Assembly (NCBI GenBank): GCA_021806765.1
Contig: JAJZQR010000253.1
Coordinates: forward strand, 1-7,873
Origin: Chloroflexota bacterium
GTDB taxonomy: Bacteria; Chloroflexota; UBA6077
DNA: 7,873 nucleotides
Reading direction: 5' to 3'
Every line of letters starts with the position of its first letter. Positions within the stretch are counted from its first letter, which is position 1. Under the pieces are notes generated by a model. It made no database searches. It saw nothing but the letters and a program-made list of their open reading frames with translations, and was not told where the DNA came from. This document shows, piece by piece, positions 514 through 7,688 of this stretch. The position numbers and the translations under genes were made by a program.

Positions 514-746
514 AGCTCATTGCTCATGACTGGTATCTCGTCCCCGCCGGCCAGCAGCCGGCTCACCCTCAGTTCTGCCTGGTCCAGCATGGCGGTGCAC
601 AGGTTGGCCAGCCTCATGCCTGATTCGAACTGCTCTATGCTGGCCTCGAGGGTGAGGCCGCCGTCCTCCAGGGCCTGAATGGTGGCTTGCAGCCTCTCGA
701 AGGCCTGCTCGAAGGAGAGTTGTTCGAAGACTCTCTCCTCGCTCAT
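510..746 (-). CDS. xseB: Exodeoxyribonuclease VII small subunit
   Basis: The 78-residue small subunit of exonuclease VII, which binds in several copies to the helical region of XseA to form the processive single-strand-specific nuclease used in repair and recombination. The family pattern is plain: SFEQAFERLQATIQALEDG (residues 11-29), then LTLEASIEQFESGMRLANLC (31-50) and a second long helix with LDQAELRVSRLL (54-65). Length is typical. The ATG at 746 overlaps the xseA stop as ATGA, so translation is coupled, and a strong GGAGG lies 7 nt upstream inside the end of xseA. The last codons run into a palindromic repeat that supplies the TAG. The pairing with xseA on the left side of the cluster is the usual arrangement. 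Confidence 0.96.
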   Translation of the reverse strand: MSEERVFEQLSFEQAFERLQATIQALEDGGLTLEASIEQFESGMRLANLCTAMLDQAELRVSRLLAGGDEIPVMSNEL

Positions 747-1954
747 CGTTGCACCTCCGTCACCGTCGAATGGATCCTGCCGTCGGCGACCCGGATCTCC
801 AACAGATCCCCCGGTTCCACTTCCCGATGGCTCCGGACCAGCCTCCCCCTGGTTCGGTTCTCGCAGAGGGAGTAGCCCCTCTGGAGGGTCTGCAGGGGGC
901 TGAGGGCCTCCAGCTGCATGCCGGCTCCCCGCACCATCTCTCGGGTCATCTGAAGCCGGTGAGCCAGAGTACGGTGGGCTCGCTCCAACAGGTCGTCCAC
1001 GCCCCTCCGGCGGATGTCGATCTGGGCCGTTGGAGAATGACGCTCCAGACGGGTCCGCGCCCGATCCAGGGCACCTTCGTTCCCCTGCAGCTGATCCTGC
1101 ATGCCCCTCATCAGCCGGCGCCTCAACTCCGCCAGCTGCATTCGGGAGTCTAACATATTGGGCGTCACCAGTTCCGCTGCGGCGGAGGGGGTTGGCGCCC
1201 TCAGATCGGCCACGTAGTCGGCAATGGTGTAGTCGGTCTCGTGGCCGATGGCCGACACCACGGGCACCGTGGAGGCGAAGATGGCCCGGGCCAGTCCCTC
1301 GTGGTTGAAGGCAGAGAGATCCTCCATAGAACCCCCGCCCCGGGCGATCACGATCAGGTCCAGGGGGCGGCGAGTGAGGTGGTAGTGATTCAACTCCTGA
1401 AGGGCCGCGATCACCTCGGGGGGTGCAGTATCTCCCTGGACCGCTGAGGGCGCCAGGAGGATCTCAACCATGGGGTACCTACGACTCACGATGTTCAGGA
1501 AGTCGTGGATCACAGCCCCCGTGGGCGAGGTAATGAGACCGATGCGCTGCGGATAGACGGGCAAGGAGCGCTTGCGCTCCGGGGCGAATAGCCCCTCGGC
1601 TTCCAGCTTGGCTCGCAGGGCCTCGAACTGGAGGTAGAGTAGCCCCACCCCTTCGGGTTGCACGGCGTCGGCATACAGCTGGCAGCTGCCCTGGGCCTCG
1701 TAGAAGGAGACCCTCCCGTGAACCAACACGCTGAGACCGTTGGACAGATCTACCCCCAGCTTCCGCTGGGAGGCTCGGAACAGGGCGCAGCGCAGTTGTC
1801 CCTGGCCGTCCTTCAGGGTGAAGTAGAGGTGACCCGCGGTGGAGCGGGTGAAGTTCGATACCTCTCCATGGACCCACAGGTCGGCCAGCAGTTCGTCGTA
1901 GTCCATCAGTTGCTTGACGTAGCCGGTGACCTGGCCGACCTCGTAGATCTGCAA
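743..1954 (-). CDS. xseA: Exodeoxyribonuclease VII large subunit
   Basis: The 403-residue catalytic subunit of exonuclease VII, which cuts single-stranded DNA from both ends. An N-terminal OB-fold (about 3-97, with LWVHGEVSNFTRS at 26-38 and GHLYFTLKD at 41-49) is followed by the catalytic domain: GLITSPTGAVIHDFLN (139-154), VIARGGGSMEDLSAFNHE (202-219) and SAIGHETDYTIADYVADLRA (234-253), then APTPSAAAELVTP. Residues 265-345 form the long Arg/Leu-rich helical region where XseB binds, and SPLQTLQRGYSL (352-363) is the conserved C-terminal motif. All expected motifs are intact. The start is a TTG at 1954, with AGAGG 5 nt upstream; MQIYEVGQVTGYVKQL matches the usual XseA N-terminus. A 154-nt repeat-bearing gap separates it from the accB-like gene. 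It overlaps xseB by 4 nt. Confidence 0.96.
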   Translation of the reverse strand: MQIYEVGQVTGYVKQLMDYDELLADLWVHGEVSNFTRSTAGHLYFTLKDGQGQLRCALFRASQRKLGVDLSNGLSVLVHGRVSFYEAQGSCQLYADAVQPEGVGLLYLQFEALRAKLEAEGLFAPERKRSLPVYPQRIGLITSPTGAVIHDFLNIVSRRYPMVEILLAPSAVQGDTAPPEVIAALQELNHYHLTRRPLDLIVIARGGGSMEDLSAFNHEGLARAIFASTVPVVSAIGHETDYTIADYVADLRAPTPSAAAELVTPNMLDSRMQLAELRRRLMRGMQDQLQGNEGALDRARTRLERHSPTAQIDIRRRGVDDLLERAHRTLAHRLQMTREMVRGAGMQLEALSPLQTLQRGYSLCENRTRGRLVRSHREVEPGDLLEIRVADGRIHSTVTEVQR

Positions 1955-2108: not shown

Positions 2109-2552
2109 TTAGGCCGGTCTCAACGCCATCAGAGGTTGTCCGTACTCTACGGGCTCCCCATCCTCAACCAGGAAGCTGTCGACGATCCCCTCGGCGGTGG
2201 AGAAGACGCTGTGAGGGATCATCATGACCTCGATGTAGCCGACGACGTCTCCGATGGAGACCTTGCCCCCGACCTCCACCTTAGGGGATGTGGAAGCCCT
2301 CTCCGCCCGGGTGAAGACCCCCACCGCCAGGGCCCGGACCACCCGTGGTTCCTCCGGCGCCGGCTCCGGCGATGGCAGTGGGGTCGAGGCGGATTCCTGC
2401 CTGGGCGAGGTCTCCCGCGTCGTACGGCGGAGGGATAGCTTGAACTCCCCCTGCTCGATCTCGCACTCCTCGACGTCGCTGCCGGCCAGCAGCTCCATCA
2501 GCCTGCCGATCTCCTGGGTATCGATCCCATCGAGGTCGAACTGCGATCCCAT
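2109..2552 (-). CDS. BCCP-like protein (AccB family) lacking the biotinyl lysine
   Basis: This 147-residue protein has the layout of the biotin carboxyl carrier protein of acetyl-CoA carboxylase. It has the N-terminal helix region (IDTQEIGRLMELLAGSDVEE, 10-29, then CEIEQGEFKLSLRR, 30-43), a Pro/Ser/Glu-rich linker (about 47-69), and a biotinyl/lipoyl domain (71-147) ending in EDGEPVEYGQPLMAL. The biotin acceptor is missing: the usual EAMKM reads E108-V-M-M111-I, codon 111 (2222-2220) being ATG instead of a lysine codon. The alignment to E. coli BCCP runs without gaps through this hairpin. Neighbouring conserved positions differ too (IPHSVFSTAEG instead of a MNxIEAxxxG-like run), which argues against a single sequencing error. 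It cannot be biotinylated at the normal site, so I leave the symbol empty; automatic annotation would say accB. The ATG shares a base with the efp stop (TAATG), implying coupled translation. No accC follows. A non-carrier regulatory subunit, a domain for another ligand, or a relic are all possible. Confidence 0.88.
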   Translation of the reverse strand: MGSQFDLDGIDTQEIGRLMELLAGSDVEECEIEQGEFKLSLRRTTRETSPRQESASTPLPSPEPAPEEPRVVRALAVGVFTRAERASTSPKVEVGGKVSIGDVVGYIEVMMIPHSVFSTAEGIVDSFLVEDGEPVEYGQPLMALRPA

Positions 2553-3112
2553 TATCCGACTCGCTCCAGATAGGTGCCGGTGCGGGTGTCCACCCGGATC
2601 GTCTCGCCCTGATTCACGAAGAGAGGAACCTGGACCACCAATCCGGTCTCCACGGTCGCGGGCTTGGTGCCGCCGGTCGCGGTGTCGCCCTTGAAGCCGG
2701 GCTCGGTGTGTTCGATCTTCAGGTCTACCGTGATGGGCAGCTCGACGCCGAGGGGCTGCTCGTTGTAGCTGAGCAGCTCCATGGTTAGGCCGTCCTTCAG
2801 GTAGTTGACGGCGTCACCGAGGGTGTCTCGAGTCAGGACGATCTGGTCGAAGCTCTCGGTGTCCATGAAGTGGTACTGGTCGCCGTCGGCGTAGAGGAAC
2901 TGGACGGTTCGGTGGTCCAGCCGCACCCGCTGGAACTTCTCCGTCGCCTGGAAGCTGCGATCGGTGACCTGGCCCGTTCGCACGTTGCGCATCTTCAGCC
3001 GCACCTGGGCGCTGCCCCGCCCCATCTTGATGTGCTGGAAGTCGATTATCTGCTGGAGCTGGCCATCCAGCTCGATCATAATCCCCTTCTTGATCTCCCC
3101 GACGTTAATCAA
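2552..3112 (-). CDS. efp: Translation elongation factor P, arginine-type tip
   Basis: Elongation factor P enters the ribosomal E site and rescues ribosomes stalled on polyproline. It is full length at 186 residues with three beta-barrel domains: KOW-like domain 1 (about 1-62), the OB domain 2 (about 66-125) and C-terminal domain 3 ending in VNQGETIRVDTRTGTYLERV. The loop that reaches the peptidyl-transferase centre reads FQHIKMGRGSAQVR (25-38). The usual PGKG tip is MGRG, with Arg32 in the position that is lysylated in E. coli (Lys34) or rhamnosylated in Pseudomonas (Arg32), and Met in place of the preceding Pro. No modifying enzyme is encoded in the window. The start is a TTG at 3112, 2 nt after the aminopeptidase stop, with a strong GGAGG 7 nt upstream. 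The stop overlaps the next ATG. Confidence 0.97.
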   Translation of the reverse strand: MINVGEIKKGIMIELDGQLQQIIDFQHIKMGRGSAQVRLKMRNVRTGQVTDRSFQATEKFQRVRLDHRTVQFLYADGDQYHFMDTESFDQIVLTRDTLGDAVNYLKDGLTMELLSYNEQPLGVELPITVDLKIEHTEPGFKGDTATGGTKPATVETGLVVQVPLFVNQGETIRVDTRTGTYLERVG

Positions 3113-6608: not shown

Positions 6609-7688
6609 TCATCCCCTAACGTAGTTCATTCCGCCGGCCTGACGCGCCAGGCCCTTCAACTCTAGCATGGTCAGGGTGCTGGACACCACGGCCATAGGAA
6701 GACAGACCGCCCGCCGGATCTCGTCGATGTGAAGCGGCTCGTGGCCGAGACAGCGGAGCACCGCCACCTCAGTTTCGCTCTCGGGGATGGCGCCCCTGGC
6801 CTCTCTCTGCTCTACTGCCGTCTCCAGATTCAACTCCTCCAGGAGATCCCTCAATTCGCAGGCAGGCTTTGCTCCCTCCGATATCAATCTATTCGGCCCG
6901 CGACTCGCCGGGCTGAAGATGTTGCCGGGCACCGCAAACACGTCTCGCCCTTGCTCCAGGGCGAACTCGGCGGTGATGAGCGCGCCGCTGGTCTCTCCAG
7001 CTTCCACTACCAGACTGGCAAGGGACAGGCCAGAGATGATCCTGTTTCGGCGCGGGAAGTTGACGCCGTCGGGTTGGGTGCCCAGGGGAAACTCGCTCAC
7101 CACAGCACCCCTCTCCGCGATCTCGGCGGCCAACTTCCGATTCTCACCTGGATAGATTATATCAAGGCCGCTCCCCAGAACCGCTAGGGTGCGACCTCCC
7201 CCCTCCAACGCCGCCCGGTGGGCGTGGGTGTCGATCCCCTTGGCCAGGCCGCTGACCACCGTGACCCCATTCTCCGCCAGACCTCGGGCGAACAGTTCGG
7301 CTGCCTGCCGTCCGTACACTGTAGGCATCCGAGTCCCCACCACTGCGACGGCCAATTCATCTCCCGGGAGCAGTTCCCCTCGCAGGTAGAGGACCGGCGG
7401 CGGATCCGCGATGTTGCGGAGCGGCCGGGGATAATCGGGGTCCTCCAGGGTGAGCATGGTCACTTCTAGCCGCTGGAGCTTCTCCATCTCCCGCTCCAGG
7501 TCCACCCTGACGCGGGCGGCAACCAGCGCCTCGATGGTCCGCCGGTCCAACCCCACCTCGGCCAGGAGGGCCGGGCGTGCCTTCCAGGCTGCCTCGGGGC
7601 TGCCCAGGCTCTCCACCAGTCGACGGAACTTGGCCGGACCTATGCCGGGCACCAGGCTGAGCCCTACCCAGTACGCCTTCGGATCCAC
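6609..7688 (-). CDS. dprA: DNA-processing protein DprA (Smf family)
   Basis: DprA binds incoming single-stranded DNA during natural transformation and loads RecA; homologues are also present in bacteria not known to be competent. Numbered from the GTG at 7697, an N-terminal helix-hairpin-helix region (LVPGIGPAKFRRLVESLGS, 15-33) precedes the Rossmann-like core: VVGTR (119-123), SGLAKGIDTHAH (149-160), LGSGLDIIYP (174-183), FPRRNRIISGLS (214-225), ETSGALITAEFA (235-246) and AVPGNI (255-260). A C-terminal winged-helix domain (about 307-360) is complete. The upstream frame allows GTG 7697 or ATG 7694, but the only good ribosome site, AGAGG extended to AGAGGTGAT, begins at 7701 and overlaps those codons; it lies 8 nt before the GTG at 7688, so I choose that start (359 residues). 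It is the first gene after the promoter at 7777-7805. Confidence 0.96.
   Translation of the reverse strand: MDPKAYWVGLSLVPGIGPAKFRRLVESLGSPEAAWKARPALLAEVGLDRRTIEALVAARVRVDLEREMEKLQRLEVTMLTLEDPDYPRPLRNIADPPPVLYLRGELLPGDELAVAVVGTRMPTVYGRQAAELFARGLAENGVTVVSGLAKGIDTHAHRAALEGGGRTLAVLGSGLDIIYPGENRKLAAEIAERGAVVSEFPLGTQPDGVNFPRRNRIISGLSLASLVVEAGETSGALITAEFALEQGRDVFAVPGNIFSPASRGPNRLISEGAKPACELRDLLEELNLETAVEQREARGAIPESETEVAVLRCLGHEPLHIDEIRRAVCLPMAVVSSTLTMLELKGLARQAGGMNYVRG

Follow-up and report, generated by a model that had tools for sequence, protein, structure and literature searches.

The window (the whole stretch of 7,873 nucleotides analysed here, from a Chloroflexota contig) encodes a relative of the biotin carboxyl carrier protein (BCCP, AccB) in which the biotin-accepting lysine is replaced by methionine, and comparison of the sequence with its relatives indicates that this is probably a non-carrier BCCP paralogue of the heteromeric acetyl-CoA carboxylase, working like the plant BADC proteins. 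Comparison among genomes establishes that the lysine has been lost, that its loss is conserved, that in related genomes the lysine-less protein co-occurs with a lysine-bearing carrier and that, in some relatives, its gene is linked to accC.

The reading frame matches the Biotin_lipoyl family PF00364 (E 5.4e-10) and scores 69.3 bits against TIGR00531, the acetyl-CoA carboxylase BCCP equivalog model, which is below the curated cut-off of 115.2 bits. Residues 108-112 are EVMMI where BCCP has EAMKM, codon 111 (read 2222-2220) being ATG, and the protein thus lacks the E-x-M-K-M biotin-acceptor motif of the TIGR00531 BCCPs. This substitution had been pointed out in a preliminary description of the DNA, together with a gap-free alignment to E. 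coli BCCP and an intact coupling to efp, and all three hold: the codon reads as described, the family profile aligns to E. coli BCCP (4hr7_B, 1a6x_A) with no gaps across the biotinyl domain, and the ATG of the BCCP-like gene shares one base with the efp stop codon. The features are located in Table 1.

Table 1. Positions of the BCCP-like gene, its parts and its neighbours in the window.
Feature	Position	Strand	Basis
BCCP-like protein without biotinyl lysine, 147 aa	2109..2552	-	ORF; PF00364; TIGR00531
Codon 111, ATG (Met), site of the biotin-accepting Lys	2220..2222	-	Sequence; E. coli BCCP alignment; homologue tally
N-terminal helix and hairpin, residues 12-43	2424..2519	-	Alignment to N-terminal region of full-length E. 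coli BCCP; model
Biotinyl-type beta domain, residues 70-146	2115..2345	-	Model pLDDT; Foldseek 1bdo, 4hr7
VEYGQ motif, residues 135-139	2136..2150	-	Alignment of 57 sequences
efp, upstream gene	2552..3112	-	Three EF-P Pfam domains; sequence
xseA, downstream gene	743..1954	-	PF02601 E 5e-98

An AlphaFold2 model of the protein (mean pLDDT 72.9) has the BCCP fold, with both an N-terminal region and a biotinyl domain, the N-terminal part being modelled at modest confidence. Blocks 71-80 and 101-147 exceed 90, block 91-100 averages 86 and block 81-90 averages 63; residues 47-66 fall below 50, and the N-terminal blocks, which hold a helix (12-23) and two strands (29-34 and 37-42), lie between 52 and 71. 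Four residues of this N-terminal region (L22, D26, E29 and R43) are invariant in 57 close sequences. The two top Foldseek matches of the model are the biotinyl domain of E. coli BCCP (1bdo) and the E. coli BC-BCCP complex (4hr7_G), with the Arabidopsis BCCP1 domain (9a87) seventh. A separate search of solved structures for a lysine-less relative gave none by name among the entries listed (60 of 72).

Between the BCCP-like gene and xseA (1955-2108) lie a 14-nt repeat in two copies (1964-1991) and a potential hairpin, made up of a perfect 10-nt inverted repeat around a 4-nt loop (2060-2083). At 47-520 on the reverse strand, after xseB, lies a 157-aa reading frame that matches none of the NCBIfam models and which we take to be of a divergent PAP2 type; many relatives have a comparable gene after xseB.

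A protein database search with the window protein returned 62 proteins, and the aligned set comprised 57 close sequences, the window protein included, and 5 distant ones. Lysine is absent from the codon-111 column in all 57 close sequences and present in the 5 distant hits. The column is variable (G 26, M 13, R 7, N 5, T 3, A 3), which rules out methionine as a conserved functional residue. The preliminary description had proposed looking for Met or another non-lysine residue at the efp-xseA locus of relatives, and it is the absence of lysine, not Met, that turns out to be constant; close relatives with a normal EAMKM, which it held would count against the idea, number none of the 57, and its view that this is not simple decay agrees with the conservation of the neighbouring residues. 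E108 is kept in 54, V109 and P113 in 56 each and H114 in 55 of the 57; E136, Y137, G138 and Q139 are invariant, and 13 columns in all are invariant across the set.

The lysine-less state extends well beyond these sequences. A second search, with a broader lysine-less alignment as the query, returned 1554 proteins, and among the best 120 all 114 new proteins lack the lysine (N 102, R 8, G 4); because the query was itself lysine-less and the best-matching rows were those examined, this shows the breadth of the family and not its frequency. Named members include proteins of Dictyobacter kobayashii and Thermogemmatispora that are annotated as biotin carboxyl carrier proteins. A general scan of contigs gave ordinary BCCPs among its best 80 matches, the best of them at no more than 36% identity, with no close relative of the window protein among the 80. 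Of their 58 distinct BCCPs, one is lysine-less, from a named Armatimonadota record (L060), and it has efp 1.2 kb upstream. The VEYGQ count in this set is uninformative, since that motif was one of the two scan patterns.

Genomes closer to the source of the window were found by TopA, which was compared among 400 genomes from the phylum of a Chloroflexi locus (L027). The window's TopA is closest to that of genome G092 (80%) and then G076 (68%), both in one class of 29 genomes, within which the locus dprA-topA-pepQ-efp-X-xseA, or the portion of it present on a contig, was compared. A BCCP-like gene occupies the efp-xseA locus in 13 of the 29, in every case without the lysine (G in 8, R in 5), and in 12 of these 13 a lysine-bearing BCCP lies beside fabF/fabH; the exception, G050, is a small draft genome that yielded no fabF either. 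Three of the other 16 (G092, G022 and G140) were read at the efp locus, the G140 contig ending too early, and 13 were unread. In G092, the closest genome compared, efp and xseA are direct neighbours without a BCCP-like gene in between, and none was seen after efp in G022, so the gene appears to be dispensable in some lineages. The short efp/xseA gap of G092 (L157, about 7620-7660) carries a repeat of the GATCAGC type resembling the one in the window, which gives the impression of a clean loss of the gene.

Carriers of other kinds also occur in this class. G092 has four loci with other lysine-bearing carriers. Among such carriers in the class, L163 sits beside an accC-like gene, and L187 and L188 sit beside genes that look, by eye, carboxyltransferase-like; these three probably belong to other biotin-dependent enzymes. 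A BCCP-like match above 31 bits is absent in 14 of the 29 genomes, though fabF was found in all 14, and weak carrier matches beside accC in four genomes (G022, G116, G132 and G203) hint at a different carboxylase layout.

For the wider survey, phylum labels were those of the named records L027 (Chloroflexota) and L060 (Armatimonadota), and gene labels came from BLAST to a few reference proteins. These labels were checked against family models for EFP, XseA, TopA, DprA, XseB, FabH, BioA, BioB and BioD and likewise, matched by coordinates, for AccC and FabF; for the label PepQ, aminopeptidase models matched only below their cut-offs. Because the majority of loci were chosen for scoring best against lysine-less profiles, the proportions without lysine are not prevalences. 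An efp-linked copy without lysine was found in several Chloroflexota groups, including Ktedonobacteria-like genomes with N at the lysine position, a 41-genome class (G, N or D) and a Q group; one of the Ktedonobacteria-like copies has exactly the sequence of the Dictyobacter kobayashii protein named above. Among the Chloroflexota loci read, a lysine-less copy in the neighbourhood of efp, xseA or accC occurs in 65 genomes, 62 of which also yielded a second, lysine-bearing BCCP: 59 beside fabF/fabH, 2 in the same accC operon and 1 (G289) at a contig edge. The remaining three (G050, G065 and G246) showed no second BCCP of the fab-linked type; G065 and G246 contain other lysine-bearing carriers (L377 and L368). 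Eleven Chloroflexota genomes have an efp copy that keeps the lysine; in 6 of these it is the sole TIGR00531 match at E 1e-8, and in all 11 no fabF/fabH marker was seen beside any further BCCP match (E 1e-8, about 3 kb read per match).

In Armatimonadota, 61 genomes were searched, most of which contain two BCCP-like matches, and loci were read in 31. These gave 29 distinct copies of the efp/accC type, 22 without the lysine (G, R, T, D or S) and 7 with it, and an accC-like sequence lies within 1.5 kb on the same strand in 19 of the 22. All 21 distinct second copies carry lysine, as do 7 further ones that reach the hairpin, and no fabF or accC marker was seen beside second copies in the approximately 5 kb read. 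A second, lysine-bearing copy was read in 20 of the 22 genomes with a lysine-less copy; the other two had no readable second copy, G432 giving one match only and the second copy of G461 running off its contig. In the 7 genomes whose first copy keeps the lysine the second copy has it too, so a split between carrier and non-carrier is not universal in this phylum.

The two kinds of copy also differ at the VEYGQ edge. In Chloroflexota, VE[YF] is present in 65 of 68 distinct lysine-less sequences and in none of 49 fab-linked carriers; in Armatimonadota, it is present in 20 of 22 lysine-less sequences and in none of 21 partner carriers. It is missing as well from both partner carriers inside accC operons, and the lysine-less sequences without it number 3 in Chloroflexota and 2 in Armatimonadota. 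Lysine and VE[YF] occur together in the lysine-keeping copies at the old locus (12/12 efp-linked copies in Chloroflexota, 7/7 efp/accC-linked copies in Armatimonadota). This distribution over the two copies leads us to conclude that each paralogue retained one of the two features, the lysine in one case and the VEYGQ edge in the other.

Selection was measured in one group of the 41-genome class, on reading frames taken from stop to stop that may include a few upstream codons. Values of dN/dS were 0.09-0.22 in 20 of 21 lysine-less pairs (seven genomes) and 0.37 in the remaining, very close pair; carrier pairs gave 0.07-0.16 in the 14 with an estimate (six genomes). A first tree of Chloroflexota, the A2 family and other phyla (133 rows after thinning of near-copies and generic rows, with the trait columns omitted) places the lysine-less copies mainly in one 60-row group (SH-aLRT 86) and the 6-row Q group, and places the fab-linked carriers and the two accC-operon carriers in another group (SH-aLRT 95); it can be reconciled with a single change of lysine state if forks that lack support are treated as open. 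A second tree, with Armatimonadota added (172 rows), needs 6 changes, of which 5 fall among copies of the efp/accC type, 4 within Armatimonadota and 1 within Chloroflexota, and well-supported branches force fewer. Tree support is weak, and the lysine has perhaps been lost several times. Both forms of the first copy share the Armatimonadota locus beside a lysine-bearing second copy, which suggests that duplication came first and loss of the lysine later. We advance, tentatively and with slightly less than even confidence, the broader proposal that two or more bacterial phyla have divided the BCCP of their acetyl-CoA carboxylase between a carrier and a non-carrier, the lysine having been lost, perhaps repeatedly, at the old efp(-accC) locus, with the non-carrier, which databases name BCCP, as a standing subunit in parallel to plant BADC.

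The window protein resembles bacterial BCCP (AccB; TIGR00531, PF00364) in fold, N-terminal region, biotinyl domain and efp linkage, and differs from it in lacking the biotinyl lysine and in falling below the TIGR00531 cut-off. With plant BADC it shares being a BCCP homologue without the biotinyl lysine; coexistence with a lysine-bearing BCCP was observed for its relatives, in 62/65 Chloroflexota and 20/22 Armatimonadota genomes read. The plant proteins are described as BCCP relatives that are not biotinylated because the biotinylation motif is missing and that coexist with true BCCPs, and they have been proposed both as inhibitors and as assembly glue; the same account calls BADC unique to the plant enzyme (PMC11926652). 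Interaction with BC and BCCP has been shown for BADC and would be a prediction for the lysine-less bacterial proteins. The likeness proposed here is one of anatomy. Chloroflexota depart from the E. coli layout in a further way, through the fused BC-BCCP (BC1) of Chloroflexus aurantiacus, which, unlike the window protein, keeps EAMKM and is biotinylated (PMC11077971). A statement in PMC3199775 says that BCCP phylogeny was not analysed there, and no bacterial counterpart of BADC was found among the matches listed in the open-licence PMC literature searched.

Several steps can be envisioned for such a protein. Since it retains the fold and N-terminal region of BCCP together with the VEYGQ edge but has no lysine for biotin attachment, it would leave carboxyl transport to the second, lysine-bearing BCCP, whose gene in Chloroflexota relatives usually lies beside fabF and often fabH. 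The lysine-less protein would most likely associate with biotin carboxylase, with the carrier BCCP or with both, and this association would assemble or limit acetyl-CoA carboxylase, as BADC does in plants. It is by analogy with the plant proteins that binding to the enzyme, a stoichiometry within it and either its activation or its inhibition may be expected.

As a counterpoint to this carboxylase reading, the gene in Chloroflexota usually adjoins efp and xseA instead of accC, a setting that may be nothing more than a relic of an old efp-accB arrangement. A different possibility, which we consider unlikely though deserving of weight, is that the protein no longer takes part in acetyl-CoA carboxylase and works with a different partner, for example one linked to its efp or xseA neighbours. 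Throughout most of the Chloroflexota loci read, the constant neighbours are indeed efp with xseA or efp with pepQ, not accC, and the PH pair just past the hairpin tip (55/57) is unseen in the lysine-bearing BCCPs compared, which have N there. Against this, 10 efp-linked BCCPs among the best 80 matches of the general scan carry the lysine, so that the efp neighbourhood is probably inherited; the lysine-less copy co-occurs with a lysine-bearing BCCP; and accC adjoins the copies in G267 and G281, as in 19/22 in Armatimonadota. In those two Chloroflexota genomes accC, the lysine-less copy and the lysine-bearing copy follow in a row, and the accC of G267 passes TIGR00514.

It is more doubtful still that the protein acts on biotin protein ligase, as a decoy or sensor through which biotinylation of the true carrier, and not carboxylase assembly, would be tuned. 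E108 and E136 are kept in 54 and 57 of the 57 close sequences, and their counterparts in E. coli BCCP, also glutamates, are important for recognition by biotin ligase; bioA, bioD and bioB adjoin the G267 accC operon on the other strand. However, across Chloroflexota only 30 of the 62 lysine-less copies linked to efp have E108. That the protein is still a carrier, with a different residue or cofactor in use at the hairpin tip, is highly improbable: the fold and hairpin are intact in the model, but the tip residue varies between lineages (G, M, R, N, T, A, Q, D, H or S) with no constant acceptor, and an alternative attachment residue is rejected because of this variation. A sequencing error, an isolated mutation or a decaying copy can be dismissed for the family, with a residual chance close to nil, on the 57/57 absence of lysine, the 13 invariant columns and dN/dS well below 1 in the more distant relatives.

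Several proteins of this kind, including those of named Dictyobacter and Thermogemmatispora species, bear the database name biotin carboxyl carrier protein despite missing the lysine that would carry biotin. Should these proteins prove to be subunits of the carboxylase, fatty-acid synthesis in both phyla would begin with a step that has a part absent from E. coli, and the disputed role of BADC in plants, as inhibitor or as assembly glue, would become approachable through simple bacterial proteins.
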